A stretch of DNA of 52,107 bases from an uncultured Selenomonadaceae bacterium (GCA_905234505.1 CAJOIA010000015.1:1-52107); one strand, 5' to 3'. Shown: positions 26,084-38,859, counted from the first letter of the stretch. Notes: generated by a model from the sequence alone, not told the origin. Program-made: numbers and translations.

Positions 26084-26653
26084 TTGGCGGACGATAAAAA
26101 AATTTTAGTTGAAAACGAGGACGGTGACAGCGCGGAGTTAAATGCAAATCTGGCATCTTCTCCGGAAGAAATAAACGCGGATAACAACGATTTAAATTTG
26201 TTGGCGGATTTGGAAAAAGTTAAAACGGATCTTGCGGCGAAAAGTGACCGACTTTTAAGGTTGCAGGCGGATTTTGACAATTTCCGAAAGCGCATGGCTA
26301 AGGAAAAAACCGATGTTGCCGCTGTAGTTGAACAAAATTTTTTGACTGATTTATTGCCAGTGGTTGATAATTTTGGGCGAGCTCTTGAGCACAGCGAAAC
26401 TTCAGACGCCGAAACTTTGCGCAAGGGCATTACAATGATTTGGAATGAACTTGTCAAGGCGCTCAGCAAACACGGGCTTGAAGTTATCGATACTGAAAAT
26501 CAGAAATTCGACCCCTATTATCATCAATCAATCGGCAATGTTAAAGACGAAACTAAGGCTGACGGCATGATAGCTGTCGAACTTCAGCGTGGATATATGG
26601 CGCACGGCAAGGTTATTCGTGCAAGTATGGTTCAAGTTGTTAATAATGACTGA
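26084..26653 (+). CDS. grpE: Nucleotide exchange factor GrpE
   Basis: GrpE releases ADP from DnaK in the Hsp70 cycle. The acidic N-terminus is followed by a long helix (LLRLQADFDNFRKRMAKEK), the four-helix bundle (DLLPVVDNFGRALEH) and the beta-wing (VAVELQRGYMAHGKVIRASMVQV). Length (189 aa) is typical. The start is TTG, with AGGGG and GAGG upstream. The usual firmicute neighbour hrcA is not upstream; the order is grpE, dnaK, dnaJ. Confidence 0.95.
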   Translation: MADDKKILVENEDGDSAELNANLASSPEEINADNNDLNLLADLEKVKTDLAAKSDRLLRLQADFDNFRKRMAKEKTDVAAVVEQNFLTDLLPVVDNFGRALEHSETSDAETLRKGITMIWNELVKALSKHGLEVIDTENQKFDPYYHQSIGNVKDETKADGMIAVELQRGYMAHGKVIRASMVQVVNND

Positions 26654-26671
26654 TTTTGGAGGCAAAAAATT

Positions 26672-28517
26672 ATGAGTAAAGTTATTGGTATAGATTTAGG
26701 TACTACAAATAGTGTTGTTAGCGTATTGGAAGGCGGCGAGCCTACGGTTATCACAAATCCGGAAGGTAGCAGAATCACGCCTTCAGTTGTTGGTTTTACT
26801 AAAGACGGTCAGCGTCTAGTTGGGCAGTTGGCAAAACGTCAAGCTGTTTCCAATCCTGACAGAACAATTTCATCAATTAAGCGCCATATGGGCGAAAGTT
26901 ATAAAGTTTCGATTGACGGCAAAGATTACACACCGCCGGAAATTTCCGCGATGATTCTTCAAAAGCTCAAGGCTGACGCGGAAGCTTATCTTGGCGAAAC
27001 TGTAACGCAGGCTGTTATTACCGTTCCTGCTTATTTTAATGACAGTCAACGCCAGGCAACCAAAGACGCCGGTAAGATTGCTGGCTTAGAAGTTTTGCGC
27101 ATAATCAACGAACCAACGGCGGCGGCGCTTGCTTACGGACTCGATAAAGACGCTGACGAAACCATTTTAGTTTTTGACTTGGGCGGCGGTACTTTCGACG
27201 TTTCGATTCTTGAATTGACTGAAGGTACTTTCGATGTTCAAGCCACCAACGGCGATACGCATTTAGGCGGCGACGATTTCGATAAAAAAGTTATGGACTG
27301 GATGGTTGCCGAATTTAAGCGCGAAAATGGCATTGATTTGTCAACTGATAAAATGGCGGCGCAACGTTTGATTGAAGCGGCTGAAAAGGCTAAAATCGAA
27401 CTTAGTTCAATGACTTCGACGAATATTAATCTGCCTTTCGTAACAGCTGACGCTAGCGGTCCTAAGCATTTGGATTTGACATTGACGCGCGCGAAATTTG
27501 ATGAACTTACTCGCGATTTGGTTGATCGTACAATGGGACCGACCAAGCAGGCTATGAAAGACGCCGGACTTAGCGGCAAAGACATTAACAAAATTATCTT
27601 GGTAGGCGGCTCTACGCGTATTCCGGCTGTGCAAAATGCGATTCGCGAAATTCTCGGCAAAGAGCCTTCCAAAGGCATCAATCCGGACGAATGCGTTTCA
27701 GTTGGCGCGGCAATTCAAGGCGGCGTTTTGGCTGGCGAAGTCAAAGACGTGCTCTTGCTGGACGTTACACCGCTTTCACTTGGAATTGAAACTTTAGGCG
27801 GCGTTTGCACGAAAATTATTGAGCGCAATACAACAATACCTACGCAAAAATCACAGGTATTTTCAACGGCGGCTGATAATCAATCGAGCGTTGAAATTCA
27901 CGTTTTGCAGGGCGAGCGCGAAATGGCAGCTGGCAATAAAACTTTGGGCAGATTCGTACTTAGCGATATTCCGCCTGCGCCGCGTGGCGTTCCGCAGATT
28001 GAAGTTACTTTCGACATTGACGCGAACGGTATTGTCAACGTTTCCGCGAAAGATAAGGGCACTGGTCGCGAGCAGAAAATTACAATTCAATCTTCCAGCG
28101 GCATGAGCAAAGAAGATATTGACCGCATGGTTAAGGAAGCGGCGGCTCACGAAGCTGAAGATAAGAAACAGCGCGAGGCGGCGGACGCTAAAAATGAAGC
28201 CGAGCAAACAGTTTACCAGGCTGAAAAAACCTGCCAAAGACTTCGAGGGCAAAGTTGACGCCAATTTAATTAAAGACGTTCAAACAGCGACTGAATCTTT
28301 GAAATCGGATCTGAATAATGCTGACGTTGAAACTCTTAAAAAGAAAACTGAAGCTGTTCGTCAAGCTCTGTACAAATTAAGTTCGGCGGCGTATCAAAGT
28401 GGCGCTGCTAATCAGAATTATCAGCAGGAGGCTCCGAAGCAAGAAAATAATTCCAAAGCTGACAATGACGACGGCACAATTGACGCCGAATATACCGAGA
28501 TGAAAGATAAAAAGTGA
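26672..28517 (+). CDS. dnaK: Chaperone DnaK, reading frame broken by a one-base shift near the 3' end
   Basis: This is the main Hsp70 chaperone. The ATPase domain ([33 protein letters not shown]) and the substrate-binding domain ([24 protein letters not shown]) are intact. The first frame ends at 28258 after only 528 residues, while the missing lid ([15 protein letters not shown] to the EYTEMKDKK terminus) continues in another frame to 28517. Removing one base between 28221 and 28240, where an A6 run lies at 28224-28229, restores a protein of about 614 residues, the normal length. A sequencing or assembly error is the simplest explanation because DnaK is rarely lost. A true lid truncation or a frameshift signal cannot be excluded. 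It starts at an ATG after GGAGG. Confidence 0.93.
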
Positions 28518-28547
28518 TAAGTGATTAATCGCTATTCACTAAACAAG

Positions 28548-34086: not shown

Positions 34087-34569
34087 TTAAATAAATTTGA
34101 ATTTATTCACGGCTTGAATTAATTTCTTGCAGACATTTATTTGGTAAAGATTTTCAACTTGAAATTGCGCGCCATTTGGAAAACGCCAGCTACGCGGATA
34201 ATAAACATAATAAAATTTATCTTCCTCATTGTAAAGCAGCGCGTATTCACCGTATATATTATAGTTGCCGTCATATTCCACTTCATAGCCGTCAAAAATA
34301 ATCGCTGCGTTGCCGTACTGCAATTTTTGCTCAGATTTTCGCGCAGATTTTAGACTAAACGCTAGCATTGAGCCATCGTCGCGGGCGGTGAAAATCGGGC
34401 AATTCAAATCGCCATTCCAATATTCAAGCTTAACGTCATTAGTCTTCGTAATTTTATTAAACTGCAAAAAATCAATATTGCTCGGCGCCTCGAAATTTTT
34501 ATAACAGTATGAAACCACTGAAAAAACTATCGTGAGTATTATCCAGTCTTTGAGATTCAAATTGGGCAT
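34087..34569 (-). CDS. Membrane-anchored protein of unknown function, downstream of the Hsp70-like gene
   Basis: The 160-residue product begins with a single uncleaved hydrophobic helix (WIILTIVFSVVSYCY) followed by an extracytoplasmic region rich in tyrosine and beta-type patterns (FDGYEVEYDGNYNIYGEYAL, KFYYVYYPRSW). I recognise no family. It lies six bases downstream of the Hsp70-like gene and is the last gene of the operon that starts with pilin-like genes. It could be an additional surface or assembly component, but this rests on position only. It converges on uvrC across 40 bp. Confidence 0.65.
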   Translation of the reverse strand: MPNLNLKDWIILTIVFSVVSYCYKNFEAPSNIDFLQFNKITKTNDVKLEYWNGDLNCPIFTARDDGSMLAFSLKSARKSEQKLQYGNAAIIFDGYEVEYDGNYNIYGEYALLYNEEDKFYYVYYPRSWRFPNGAQFQVENLYQINVCKKLIQAVNKFKFI

Positions 34570-34575
34570 AAATAT

Positions 34576-36213
34576 TTAATCGGCGGAAATTCTGAGTTGA
34601 TGCACTGCGCTTTTTTCAACGTCAATATCAGATTCGGTGCGGAGGAAAGTTTCAAAAACTTCATTGGTTTTGGTATTAACTGCCTCGACATGAACGCCGG
34701 ACGCGTCAACTTTAAACGTGACTTTAATTGGCGTGGTGCGTGAAGTTTCGGGCGGCAAATTGACAATAAGCTCACCCAAAAGTTTCACGGCATTAGCGGG
34801 GTCGGTAATTTGTGGATTGCCTTCTTCGTCAACGCAGGGTATAAGTGTATCTTCCAGCGACATATTTTCAAAGGCGCGCAATCTCACGCGTTCCTGATTA
34901 TCTTCAAGCGGATAATAAGTTTTGCTAAAAACGGCAGGCATTTTTTCGCCAATCTTGATAAAGTTTTCGAGCACGTATTTTTGCTTGCTGCCTTTAGTAT
35001 CCATAACGCCTGGACCAAATGAGCGTGGCGTCTGATCTTCGACAGTAAATTTCGCGGTTAATTGTTCAACGGCGGACGGAGTTTTTTCAGCGGAATTATC
35101 GTCGGAAGTTTCGCCGCCTTGAACGCTGCCTTCTTCGACAACTAGCATACTTGCATAAATCGCTGCGCCTTTTGCAACGGCTTGGTCGGGGTCATGCTGT
35201 TGAACCCTGCCAGGAAATTTAGCTTCAACCGCTTTTTGAATCATCGGCATGTAAGTTGAGCCGCCCACCAATAAAACCGTGTCAATTTCAACATTGGGAA
35301 CTTTTTCAAGTGTCGAATCAATCCAATTAATGGTGCGGGCGACGATATCTGAAGTCATATTTTCAAATTCTGCGCGAGTGATAGAAATTTCAGTACGTGC
35401 GCCGTTCACGTCAATTCTGACTTTAGCGGATTGTTTTTTGCTAAGTTTGCGCTTCACCTCTTCAACTTTGCTGCGAATATCTTGCCGCGTTTCAACTTCA
35501 ATTTCTTCTTGAGTTAAACCATTTTCATCACAGCAAGCGCGAAGAATATAATCAAAAAGTTTATCGTCCCAGTCTTTACCGCCGAGTCGATCATCGCCGC
35601 CGGTTGCCAGCACGTTAATTTTTTGAACGTCTTTACCCTGCTCATTGCGCGTCATTGACATTTTAACAACGGTAACGTCGAAAGTTCCGCCGCCCAAATC
35701 ATAAACCAGAATTGTTCTATCCTCTTGAAATTGCCGCGCGCAGTAACTCAAAGCTGCCGCTGTGGGCTCGTTAATCAAACTTAAAACGCGCAAGCCTGCC
35801 AATTCGCCAGCCTGTTTAGTTGCACTGCGCTCTTCAAGCCCAAAATAAGCCGGTACTGTTATAACAACATTTTCAATTTCGTTGCCCTGCGATTCAACAA
35901 GATTTTTCAGGCGCGTTAAAATCAGCGCGCTAATTTCAACCGGCGTGTAAGTTTTGCCGTCAAATGTATATGTTCGACCATTCGGCTTGCCAATTTCGCG
36001 CTTAACAAATTGAACAACGCGGTCGCCGTCAGTTTCAATATTTTCTTTCGCTGCCTGTCCAACAACGACATTATGCTCATTTTCGAAAAAAACTACCGAC
36101 GCAACCATATTTGAATCATCTTCGTTATTGCGAATAACTTCGGGGTTCCCGTTAGAATCTAGCCGCGCAATGCAAGAATAAGTTGTCCCAAGATCTATAC
36201 CGTAAGTACTCAT
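34576..36213 (-). CDS. Hsp70-family chaperone, divergent and without the helical lid
   Basis: This is a second Hsp70, clearly different from the dnaK product at 26.7 kb. The ATPase domain is complete ([57 protein letters not shown]) and should bind and hydrolyse ATP. After ~370 residues comes a linker rich in Gly, Ser and Glu, then a beta-rich region of ~150 residues with weak similarity to DnaK substrate domains. The alpha-helical lid is missing and the protein ends at 545 residues. The ATG directly follows the GrpE-like stop codon, with GGAGG inside the upstream gene, so the two are coupled. A client-specific chaperone is inferred. Confidence 0.88.
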   Translation of the reverse strand: MSTYGIDLGTTYSCIARLDSNGNPEVIRNNEDDSNMVASVVFFENEHNVVVGQAAKENIETDGDRVVQFVKREIGKPNGRTYTFDGKTYTPVEISALILTRLKNLVESQGNEIENVVITVPAYFGLEERSATKQAGELAGLRVLSLINEPTAAALSYCARQFQEDRTILVYDLGGGTFDVTVVKMSMTRNEQGKDVQKINVLATGGDDRLGGKDWDDKLFDYILRACCDENGLTQEEIEVETRQDIRSKVEEVKRKLSKKQSAKVRIDVNGARTEISITRAEFENMTSDIVARTINWIDSTLEKVPNVEIDTVLLVGGSTYMPMIQKAVEAKFPGRVQQHDPDQAVAKGAAIYASMLVVEEGSVQGGETSDDNSAEKTPSAVEQLTAKFTVEDQTPRSFGPGVMDTKGSKQKYVLENFIKIGEKMPAVFSKTYYPLEDNQERVRLRAFENMSLEDTLIPCVDEEGNPQITDPANAVKLLGELIVNLPPETSRTTPIKVTFKVDASGVHVEAVNTKTNEVFETFLRTESDIDVEKSAVHQLRISAD

Positions 36214-36810
36214 TTATAAATTTCCTCCAATATTCTCTTCGTTATCTACAATTTCAGTTTCCGGCGCAGGCTCAATCGTCGAATCGAATACGTACACGTC
36301 AACAAATTCGCGGTACAAAGGACGCCCATTGCGGACGACACCTGCGCGACGACTTTTAGCAATGGTATTGTGCCGCACTCTATCATTAGTTGCAATGGTA
36401 TTAATAATTTTTGTCAAGAGCGGGCGACGCGGCTCACCAATTTTGGAATTAAAAATTTCAGCGCCATAATCGGCAAGAATATCTTCAATTTCATCAAACA
36501 TCAACTGTAAAGTTCGGCGCGTATTCTGCGAAATAGTTTCATCGGCAAGAAGCATCCTATATTCAACGCAAATTGCCGCCAATGATTTTAAAATCGGCGT
36601 GAATTGCTCGCCGCGCTGTTGTTTGCGCAAATCCTCCAAATCGTTATACATCCCTTGCCGCACTTGATTTTGAAAATTTATATTCTCGCGCAGAACTTGA
36701 TTTAGAAGCCGTGAATTTCTATCCTGCTGATTGAGAATCTCATTGATCATTTCCACTAATTTATTTAAATCAAACTGCGCCGCGTCGAAATCTTCATTAT
36801 TAGAATCCAT
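36214..36810 (-). CDS. GrpE-like protein paired with the divergent Hsp70
   Basis: The 198-residue product looks like a distant GrpE, the nucleotide exchange factor of Hsp70. An N-terminal helical segment (residues ~15-70, with LVEMINEILNQQDRNSRLL) resembles the dimerising helix. A bundle region (RGEQFTPILKSLAAICVEY to EIEDILADYGAEIF) and a terminal beta-wing pattern (KSRRAGVVRNGRPLYREFVD) follow. The wing matches the GrpE layout of hydrophobic-Arg-Gly-basic and Arg-Pro residues. Sequence identity is low, so this relies on pattern and on the adjacent Hsp70 gene. The stop and the Hsp70 start are immediately adjacent. Confidence 0.7.
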   Translation of the reverse strand: MDSNNEDFDAAQFDLNKLVEMINEILNQQDRNSRLLNQVLRENINFQNQVRQGMYNDLEDLRKQQRGEQFTPILKSLAAICVEYRMLLADETISQNTRRTLQLMFDEIEDILADYGAEIFNSKIGEPRRPLLTKIINTIATNDRVRHNTIAKSRRAGVVRNGRPLYREFVDVYVFDSTIEPAPETEIVDNEENIGGNL

Positions 36811-36873
36811 AAGCTCGCCTCCTTCGATTTATTTTCGCAAAAAAATTCGTCAAACCGCTGTAACTTTCCTGCA

Positions 36874-37371
36874 TTACAAATCGTTGACAAAATGAATCGT
36901 CTGATTTGGATCATCTTCAAGCACAAAAGCCAACGCCCGCCGATAAATCTCGCCCTCCATAAAATTCGCCTCACAGCTCGCTACCGCTATACAAATTATT
37001 CCGGTCTCATTCGAAATGTGCGTCTTTTTTTTTGAAGGGTAATTCATTTTAACTTGCTCAAAATTTTCGTAGTATATGGCATAAACTTGCACTTTAAAAT
37101 TTTTATCTTTAAATCTTTCCTCATCAGAAGGAATTACTTTTTCGTCAAGAATCAGTTCTATTTTGCCTGGATCCCATTGTTTGTCTTTGCACTTTGCCAC
37201 TGCCTCAACCAGCGCACTATCGGCTATATTTTGCAATTCAGTTTCCACCCAAAAATTTTCAGCGCCGCTTGAATAATTCGTTTCAAACCCTTGCACGCCC
37301 ATAATTGAAATTGCGACGGTGAGCAACAGACATAATCCAACAACAGTAAAAAAGCCTCGCTCATTAATCAT
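36874..37371 (-). CDS. Type IV pilin-like protein (PilX position)
   Basis: A short basic leader (MINERG) is followed by a hydrophobic N-terminal helix (FFTVVGLCLLLTVAISIMG), the layout of a prepilin cut after Gly by prepilin peptidase. Position 5 of the mature form is Val rather than Glu. The remaining ~130 residues form a charged globular domain. The ATG at 37371 has GAGGT eight bases upstream and overlaps the previous gene by eight bases. It is the fourth of four tandem pilin-like genes, in the place of the PilX/GspK-type minor pilin. The protein should be exposed outside the inner membrane. Confidence 0.7.
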   Translation of the reverse strand: MINERGFFTVVGLCLLLTVAISIMGVQGFETNYSSGAENFWVETELQNIADSALVEAVAKCKDKQWDPGKIELILDEKVIPSDEERFKDKNFKVQVYAIYYENFEQVKMNYPSKKKTHISNETGIICIAVASCEANFMEGEIYRRALAFVLEDDPNQTIHFVNDL

Positions 37372-37945
37372 TATCGGGATACCTCGTGTCAATTATTTTG
37401 GGACAAGCCGGAGCAAAAACCGCCGTACTAAGTTTTACCATTTGACCGGTAACTTTATTATCCATTTCCAAAGTTATATGCAAAACATTTTTTGTTAGCG
37501 CCGAAAATTCCAGCCGCTTGATAAAAGTTTCGCCATATGAACTTTTTCCAGTGATTGGACTGGTATAATTTTTTTCGTCATCCGTATGTTTAAAATAAAC
37601 GTGACTGTAAACGTCATTTTTCGGAGTATGCACGTCATAAATCCGCGTGTCTTGAACATTTTCAAAAGTGAGTAGTTTATCGGTGGTTTGCGTGTGACAC
37701 ATAAAAATTACTCGCTGACCGTTTTTCTTAATCGTAATTTCATAGGCGGCGCGGGCGTCAGTCGTTATCCTTTCGATAACTTCTTGCGCCTCCGTTTCCA
37801 AAACATAATCAGCAACTTGTTCTCTAGAAATTTTCCAGGCGCTAAGACTTACCGAGCCGAGCACATGTAAAAGCAAAATTAAAAGCGGCAAAGCTATTGC
37901 AAATTCTATCAATGCAAAGCCGCGCTGATTTTTAATCTCCTTCAT
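37364..37945 (-). CDS. Type IV pilin-like minor pilin (PilW/GspJ position)
   Basis: The leader MKEIKNQRG precedes FALIEFAIALPLLILLLH, a good class III signal with Glu at mature position 5, so prepilin peptidase processing and assembly are expected. The 193-residue product continues with a beta-rich C-terminal domain. It overlaps the upstream pilin gene by 14 bp and the downstream one by 8 bp. By gene order and size it corresponds to PilW/GspJ-type minor pilins that prime pilus or pseudopilus assembly. No major pilin, ATPase or secretin gene lies in the window. Confidence 0.78.
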   Translation of the reverse strand: MKEIKNQRGFALIEFAIALPLLILLLHVLGSVSLSAWKISREQVADYVLETEAQEVIERITTDARAAYEITIKKNGQRVIFMCHTQTTDKLLTFENVQDTRIYDVHTPKNDVYSHVYFKHTDDEKNYTSPITGKSSYGETFIKRLEFSALTKNVLHITLEMDNKVTGQMVKLSTAVFAPACPKIIDTRYPDND

Positions 37946-38354
37946 TGACCGTTTCCTTGTGGGTTGCTATAATTTTTTCAAATTCAATGGGGGGCGTATT
38001 TTTAATATCCCAATTGACAGTAATTTTAACTTTTTTCAGCGTATCATCACCACTAACAGTAGTTTTAATATTGAAAACCACCGGCGGCGAATCCTCTTTA
38101 ACGCCATTCAAACTTTTCAAATCGGATTCGCCAAGAAAATTGTAGCTGCCGTTTGTCAAATTATTTTCAGCTGCACGACTTTCAAGTATCGCGAATTGCT
38201 CATTTGCTAAATTAATTGCCGTTAGGTACAGCGTAGAATCTCTTTGCTGAACTTTCGCTTGCACGTTCATTAAAATCATTGCCGCAGTTGAAACAATCAG
38301 CGTCAAAAATACCGCGCTCAGCAGCATAAAGCCGCGCTCATTTTGGTGCTTCAT
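37932..38354 (-). CDS. Type IV pilin-like minor pilin (PilV/GspI position)
   Basis: The ATG at 38354 gives MKHQNERG followed by FMLLSAVFLTLIVSTAAMI, a prepilin-type leader and hydrophobic helix. Mature position 5 is Ser, not the conserved Glu, as in some minor pilins that sit at a filament tip. The product is about 140 residues, with a polar C-terminal part. The longer frame to 38405 lies inside the previous gene and adds a non-leader sequence, so it is not used. It overlaps the upstream gene by 17 bp and the next by 14 bp. Confidence 0.72.
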   Translation of the reverse strand: MKHQNERGFMLLSAVFLTLIVSTAAMILMNVQAKVQQRDSTLYLTAINLANEQFAILESRAAENNLTNGSYNFLGESDLKSLNGVKEDSPPVVFNIKTTVSGDDTLKKVKITVNWDIKNTPPIEFEKIIATHKETVNEGD

Positions 38355-38859
38355 AACTGCCGCGAAAACGCCCGACCGAGTCAAAGATAATATATGCCTT
38401 GTCATTCAGTTTTGAATTCAAGGTATAGTGACCACTGGCGACACTCTGACTGCCAAGATTTTTTGCGCTGCCATAATTATCAAAAGTAATTGTCGCATCT
38501 AAATTGTTGCGAGTAATTTGAAAGCCGCTCGGCAAATAATGCTTCCTCATTGAGTGCTTTACATTATTAACATTTCTAAAAAGCTCATAATAACCATTTT
38601 TGTTTACAGTAATTCTAACGTCATTATTAGCGTTGCTGATCTCATTAATAAAGATGGATGGCTTAAAACACGCCGTTTTACTTAGCGACCGCGCAAAATT
38701 TAATTCACTGTAGAGATGTTTCATCTCATAGTTAAGAGTAACTTTATCAAGGCTGCGAATCATTTTCGGCACGGCAATTGTCGCTAAAATTCCAATTATC
38801 GCCGTGACTAAAATAATCTCAAGCGTTGCAAATCCCATTTGATTTTTAATTTTATTCAT
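38338..38859 (-). CDS. Type IV pilin-like protein, GspH/FimT type
   Basis: The leader MNKIKNQMG precedes FATLEIILVTAIIGILATIAVP, with Glu at mature position 5; this is the best-conserved prepilin signal of the four. The downstream region has the GspH/FimT pattern, with a Ser-rich helix followed by beta-strands (DVRITVNKNGYYELF, LPSGFQI, ITFDNYGS, YIIFDSVGRFRG). Length (173 aa) is typical. It is the first gene of the pilin-like operon, 49 bp from divergent trpC. Such sets usually encode minor pilins of type IV pili, competence pili or type II secretion. Confidence 0.85.
   Translation of the reverse strand: MNKIKNQMGFATLEIILVTAIIGILATIAVPKMIRSLDKVTLNYEMKHLYSELNFARSLSKTACFKPSIFINEISNANNDVRITVNKNGYYELFRNVNNVKHSMRKHYLPSGFQITRNNLDATITFDNYGSAKNLGSQSVASGHYTLNSKLNDKAYIIFDSVGRFRGSYEAPK

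Follow-up and report, generated by a model that had tools for sequence, protein, structure and literature searches.

A GrpE-like/Hsp70 pair beside minor-pilin genes in a Quinella-like genome is a likely chaperone core of a GAP1-N2-type DO-GTPase/Hsp70 system

Why does a second Hsp70/GrpE pair follow four pilin-like genes in one tight array? The question is raised by positions 38859 to 34087 of a 52-kb contig (CAJOIA010000015.1:1-52107, the whole of which is hereafter called the window), from a 1.8-Mb, 94% complete genome of a Quinella-like bacterium (rumen Selenomonadaceae; the genus label is borrowed from relatives). A first, sequence-only reading of this DNA had proposed a chaperone dedicated to a pilus or secretion apparatus. 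The locus was compared with a genus sample of 60 genomes, mostly fragmented metagenome-assembled genomes (MAGs), in which absence calls were based on translated or hidden Markov model (HMM) searches. The named relatives are rumen Selenomonadaceae, Quinella MAGs among these; pili, chaperones and Hsp70 are not mentioned in the main text of the Quinella genome paper. Our results indicate that the pair is likely the chaperone core that was retained from a DO-GTPase/Hsp70 system of the GAP1-N2 type, and that its link with pilins looks later and clade-limited, secondary rather than its original purpose.

Relatives and parts of the GrpE-like/Hsp70 module

The nearest relatives of the Hsp70 outside the genus are found in Aerococcaceae (L089, 66% identity), Oscillospiraceae (L090, 62%) and Massilimicrobiota (L096, 51%). 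In all three cases the gene lies in an operon with genes for a zinc-ribbon/transmembrane DO-GTPase1 (PF19975 above cut-off in each), a GrpE-like protein, a zinc-ribbon protein of ~1,050 amino acids (aa) and a second DO-GTPase-like protein. Two of these operons (L089 and L096) also contain a second Hsp70, fused to vWA. GAP1-M matches are present directly downstream of the operon in L089 and L096 and within the locus in L090, with scores above cut-off in L090 and L096 and just below it in L089. Kaur, Burroughs, Iyer and Aravind described in 2020 an Hsp70/GrpE theme of GAP1-N2/DO-GTPase systems in actinobacteria and firmicutes, a subset of which has a second Hsp70 without peptide-binding domain; the theme also includes an FNIII protein, fused to DnaJ or TPR (PMC7159879). 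These DO-GTPase/Hsp70 systems were predicted from sequence, and the three operons match them nearly part for part. An Hsp70 with its own GrpE, as in the theme, is present in the window. Concerning the FNIII protein, only a weak fn3 match was obtained, in L089, and the homologous ~1,071-aa protein is present in the window genome.

The Hsp70 of the window matches PF00012 (E 1e-88), and its ATPase motifs are DLGTT at residue 7, KREIG at 71, NEPTAAA at 148, DLGGGTFD at 172 and GGST at 317. The chain stops once the beta portion of the substrate domain is complete, which leaves the protein lidless. Against the DnaK equivalog model it scores 295 bits for a cut-off of 648, and it is ~41% identical to the DnaK of the same genus, versus 62-66% to Hsp70s of DO-GTPase systems. 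It has no signal peptide and is therefore cytoplasmic. The GrpE-like protein was harder to assign. No PF01025 match was found in the window protein, and its L089 homologue reached 21.4 bits for a cut-off of 25.8; alignment of the family with the canonical GrpE profile (hhalign) gave a probability of 0.7%, with a low-diversity profile, and the profile returned just weak coiled-coil matches among PDB sequences. Structure prediction decided the matter where sequence was weak: the model (pLDDT 85) has GrpE or GrpEL1 as its top 11 PDB matches (E 4e-7 to 9e-4, the next being at ~1), and according to this model the product is a GrpE-fold protein.

Orthologues of the Hsp70 (77-91% identity) were identified in 55 of the 60 genus genomes and the GrpE-like gene in 52, almost always adjoining the Hsp70. 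None was found in the sample from 16 further families of the class, where matches were only at the level of DnaK. A degenerate, non-functional pair was ruled out by this conservation across the genus, the ATPase motifs being invariant. Downstream of the pair many genus loci (L051, L062, L069, L071, L099) contain, in the same direction, the genes of a zinc-ribbon partner of ~1,075 aa, 32% identical over its full length to that of L089, and of a DO-GTPase-like protein, 46% identical to that of L090. In the window genome the partner (~1,071 aa) is encoded on a separate contig from the pair (G000:C22:1763-4975). Of the 60 genomes, 44 contain the DO-GTPase-like gene. It is absent from nine of the 13 genomes in which pilin genes adjoin the pair (hereafter linked), as against two of the 42 other Hsp70 carriers, and from all eight genomes of the window clade, one of them 99% complete. 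Shared ancestry accounts for eight of the nine absences, so that the gene would have been lost about once or twice rather than nine times independently. The five sampled genomes without the Hsp70 are also without the DO-GTPase-like gene (four are incomplete, and one is estimated 100% complete).

Some variations of the module were observed. At L056 and L057 the Hsp70 is followed by a ~1,080-aa partner and has no GrpE-like gene ahead of it; in the genomes to which they correspond (G057 and G007) this gene is on a separate contig, which indicates that even the pair can split. At L069 a YoeB-like toxin gene (PF06769; 7626-8170) and a small upstream ORF (open reading frame) lie between the Hsp70 and a ~1,072-aa partner, and similar short ORFs occupy this place in several relatives.

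Linkage of the pair with the minor-pilin genes

Pilins and Hsp70 occur together in 52 genomes of the genus. They are adjacent in 13 of them, separated in one by 4.4 kb that includes genes on the opposite strand, and on different contigs in 38, including two (G002 and G010) that break at contig ends and where linkage is possible. At 31 loci of named genomes more than 1.5 kb could be read upstream of the pair, and no pilin adjoins it at any of these; unlinked pilin clusters retain their own four-gene order. Pair and pilins are thus each conserved apart, and neither block needs the other. The occurrence of the pair away from pilins in relatives, with adjacency in just 13 of 52 genomes, is the outcome which the sequence-only reading had named as refuting a dedicated chaperone.

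The linkage is nevertheless structured on the trees. The Hsp70 tree places the linked loci in a clade of 14 rows (support 93/89), to which the window belongs, and in a small separate clade (L044 and L066); a 29-row clade that includes the named Quinella and an 8-row clade have no adjacent pilins. All 11 loci of the 14-row clade with readable upstream sequence have pilins directly upstream. L045, L078 and L085 were considered as unlinked members of this clade and rejected, as they represent contig ends rather than real separations. The prepilin-3 tree similarly contains a 13-row clade that is wholly unlinked and a 19-row clade that includes all linked rows. The gap between prepilin 4 and the GrpE-like gene ranges from -23 to 63 bp in the 13 linked relatives, always in the same orientation. 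Gene order is strongly shuffled across the genus, and in the linked clade the pilin-GrpE-Hsp70 block is constant while its outer flanks vary by lineage. The pilin-GrpE-Hsp70 order is stable in one clade only, and pilins and pair are apart in 39 of the 52 genomes. The block being stable across changing flanks, co-transcription and a secondary recruitment to pili are both possible; in the window clade, the four pilin genes and the GrpE-Hsp70 genes most likely form one transcription unit.

Two further pilin loci were noted. Outside the linked clades, L053 (583-5949) alone has pilins close to the pair, the GrpE-like gene being 3.3 kb downstream of them with opposite-strand genes between. On contig G000:C22 of the window genome, a pilin-like gene (L101:14091-14486) lies ~9 kb from the gene of the ~1,071-aa partner.

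Weighing the explanations

Homology, folds, gene order, distribution and the absence of DO-GTPase and GAP1 matches together make it likely that the pair is what the genus has retained of a DO-GTPase/Hsp70 system. The module probably entered the Quinella-like genus at its ancestor by horizontal transfer, from a donor that would belong to the Bacillota, and has since been passed on vertically as a near-core component. It shares with the described system the GrpE and Hsp70, the large zinc-ribbon partner and, in the rest of the genus, the DO-GTPase-like gene. It differs in that GAP1 was not found in the genus and no Hsp70-vWA gene lies beside the pair, in that no DO-GTPase-like gene was found in the window clade, and in that pilins adjoin it in one clade. 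Several results weigh against this assignment: the near-core vertical inheritance is unlike that of a typical, patchy conflict system; the DO-GTPase-like protein of the genus scores below the Pfam cut-off, and no DO-GTPase was found in the window genome; GAP1 was detected in none of the 41 genomes searched, 25 of the genus included; and the N-terminus of the partner resembles a J domain by eye alone, with no HPD motif, no Pfam DnaJ match and no significant structural match. J-domain identity was thus not confirmed by Pfam or structure search, and no J function is claimed for the partner. PADLOC made no convincing defence call.

Four parts are kept by most of the genus: the GrpE-like protein and the Hsp70, the zinc-ribbon partner of ~1,075 aa and a single DO-GTPase-like protein. 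The Hsp70 would open and close with ATP and be reset by its own GrpE; this cycle may put together, or keep together, a complex centred on the partner, with the DO-GTPase as its gate wherever one occurs. In the window clade, where no DO-GTPase-like gene was detected, the GrpE-Hsp70 genes lie directly downstream of four minor-pilin genes. That the module, having lost its GTPase, was recruited there to the pilin operon, its cycle being coupled through the partner to the assembly or sensing of a type IV pilus, is an extension that we consider improbable.

The idea that the pair of the window clade is dedicated to pili, i.e. that it helps minor pilins reach or assemble into a type IV pilus, or reports pilus activity to some other process, is also doubtful. 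The unbroken linkage in the 14-row clade, its short gaps, a block that outlasts its outer flanks and the parallel grouping of linked loci in the prepilin-3 tree argue for it, as do the pilus/secretion-type ATPases encoded elsewhere in the genome (C10, C8, C38); yet the separation of pilins and pair in three quarters of the genomes with both, each conserved alone, and the identity of the Hsp70, which stays in the same range irrespective of nearby pilins, argue the other way. Moreover, the globular (head) domains of pilins fold outside the cytoplasm, so that a direct role in pilin assembly is awkward for an Hsp70 without signal peptide. Coupling to pilus motors or signalling downstream of pili is topologically possible by analogy with two precedents. 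In cyanobacteria, DnaK1-DnaJ3-GrpE couples the motors of type IV pili with polysaccharide secretion (PMC9239167); like the present case it has a GrpE and a specialised Hsp70, and a tie to type IV pili that is here a possible one, but it includes a true J protein and a demonstrated motor interaction, where we observe gene adjacency that is stable in one clade only. StkA of Myxococcus xanthus is likewise an Hsp70 homologue connected with type IV pili, downstream of which it acts; it belongs to another kind of operon, stkABC, and regulates exopolysaccharide (PMC4319316), with no dedicated GrpE gene noted in the abstract. Of the dedicated-chaperone proposal, a specialised pair distinct from DnaK, operon-like with pilins and kept in one clade, finds support; a pilus-specific nature by origin or across the group does not, the outgroup neighbours being DO-GTPases, the ~1,050-aa zinc-ribbon partner and GAP1.

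Two other explanations are less probable still. An extra DnaK/GrpE pair for ordinary proteostasis would fit the intact ATPase motifs and beta substrate domain of the Hsp70, the GrpE fold of its companion and the frame-shift in the canonical dnaK of the window. Against it stand the low identity to DnaK given above, the missing lid, expanded linker and divergent GrpE, and relatives that have a full-length DnaK and still retain the Hsp70 of the pair. Hardly more credible is a chance neighbourhood, with pair and pilins co-located without common transcription or function: the heavily shuffled gene order and a linkage restricted to part of the Hsp70 tree would allow it, against which stand the short gaps and same orientation in 13 of 13 linked relatives and a block that is constant while its flanks vary.

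The sequence-only reading knew of no described system with this layout, which stands for the pilin arrangement and falls for the chaperone pair (PMC7159879). No GrpE/minor-pilin operon turned up in a literature search. The pair and its ancestral operon are thus already described; new are a form without GAP1, its near-core status across a genus, the lack of the GTPase in one particular clade and the stable minor-pilin link. A stripped-down version of a DO-GTPase/Hsp70 system is kept by almost all members of a rumen genus, and the parts that it lacks are defined (GAP1 throughout the genus, the GTPase in a single clade) and constitute a natural part-removal series for the role of the Hsp70 core alone. 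It also offers a case in which a possible recruitment to pili can be tested, Hsp70-pilus coupling being already known in two other phyla.

Gene layout of the block and other Hsp70 genes

The features of the block are given in Table 1. All seven ORFs were recovered where the sequence-only reading had placed them, namely tandem prepilins, a GrpE-like protein, a lidless Hsp70 and a membrane-anchored protein, with prepilin 1 transcribed first and the small membrane protein last. The tight spacing it had described was equally borne out: each prepilin gene overlaps its neighbour, the GrpE-like stop and the Hsp70 start are separated by 0 bp and the Hsp70 and 160-aa protein genes by 6 bp, and no terminator-like site was found in the 63-bp gap. 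Besides the window, just the two relatives closest to it (59-65% identity) were seen to have the 160-aa protein next to the Hsp70. All four prepilins have the G|F cleavage motif and a hydrophobic N-terminal segment, as in type IV prepilins. They recall minor pilin operons (fimT/pilVWX, gspHIJK) by their number and tandem order and by a last member without Glu+5, like GspK/PilX, and differ from these by scores under every family cut-off and by the lack of pilus machinery genes alongside.

Table 1. Features of the pilin-GrpE-Hsp70 block and of the canonical chaperone genes in the window
Feature	Position	Strand	Evidence
Prepilin 1, like minor pilins, weakly similar to the GspH/FimT type, with Glu+5	38338..38859	-	GspH/GspG models E ~1e-4, below cut-offs; motif
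Prepilin 2, G|F motif, without Glu+5	37932..38405	-	ORF, motif
Prepilin 3, Glu+5 present, in 56/60 genus genomes	37364..37945	-	ORF, motif, genus search
Prepilin 4, G|F motif, without Glu+5; TTG start or ATG at 37368	36874..37392	-	ORF, motif
63-bp gap, prepilin 4 to GrpE-like gene	36811..36873	-	Strong ribosome-binding site AAGGAGG
Divergent GrpE: long helix 7-66, two helices, beta domain	36214..36810	-	Structure model
Lidless Hsp70, ATPase motifs intact, acidic expanded linker, substrate-binding beta domain kept	34576..36213	-	Pfam, motifs
160-aa protein, one N-terminal hydrophobic segment	34087..34569	-	ORF
Canonical grpE + dnaK, comparison only, outside the system	26084..28518	+	dnaK frame-shifted in lid

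The block is indeed separate from the canonical grpE-dnaK-dnaJ operon at 26 kb. The canonical dnaK (26672-28518) is frame-shifted near 28240, its lid running on in another frame to ~28518, which is either an assembly error or a real break.

Other divergent Hsp70-like genes were observed. The same genome contains two more, with a coiled-coil ORF between them (L100:11193-15221, on G000:C36). In relatives (L156, L157, L158 and L159), two to four such genes alternate with small, partly coiled-coil ORFs, an arrangement for which no name was found. At L158 a protein with the OB domain of phage baseplates and type VI injectors (PF04717; 689-2116) is encoded 2 kb upstream of the Hsp70 cluster.

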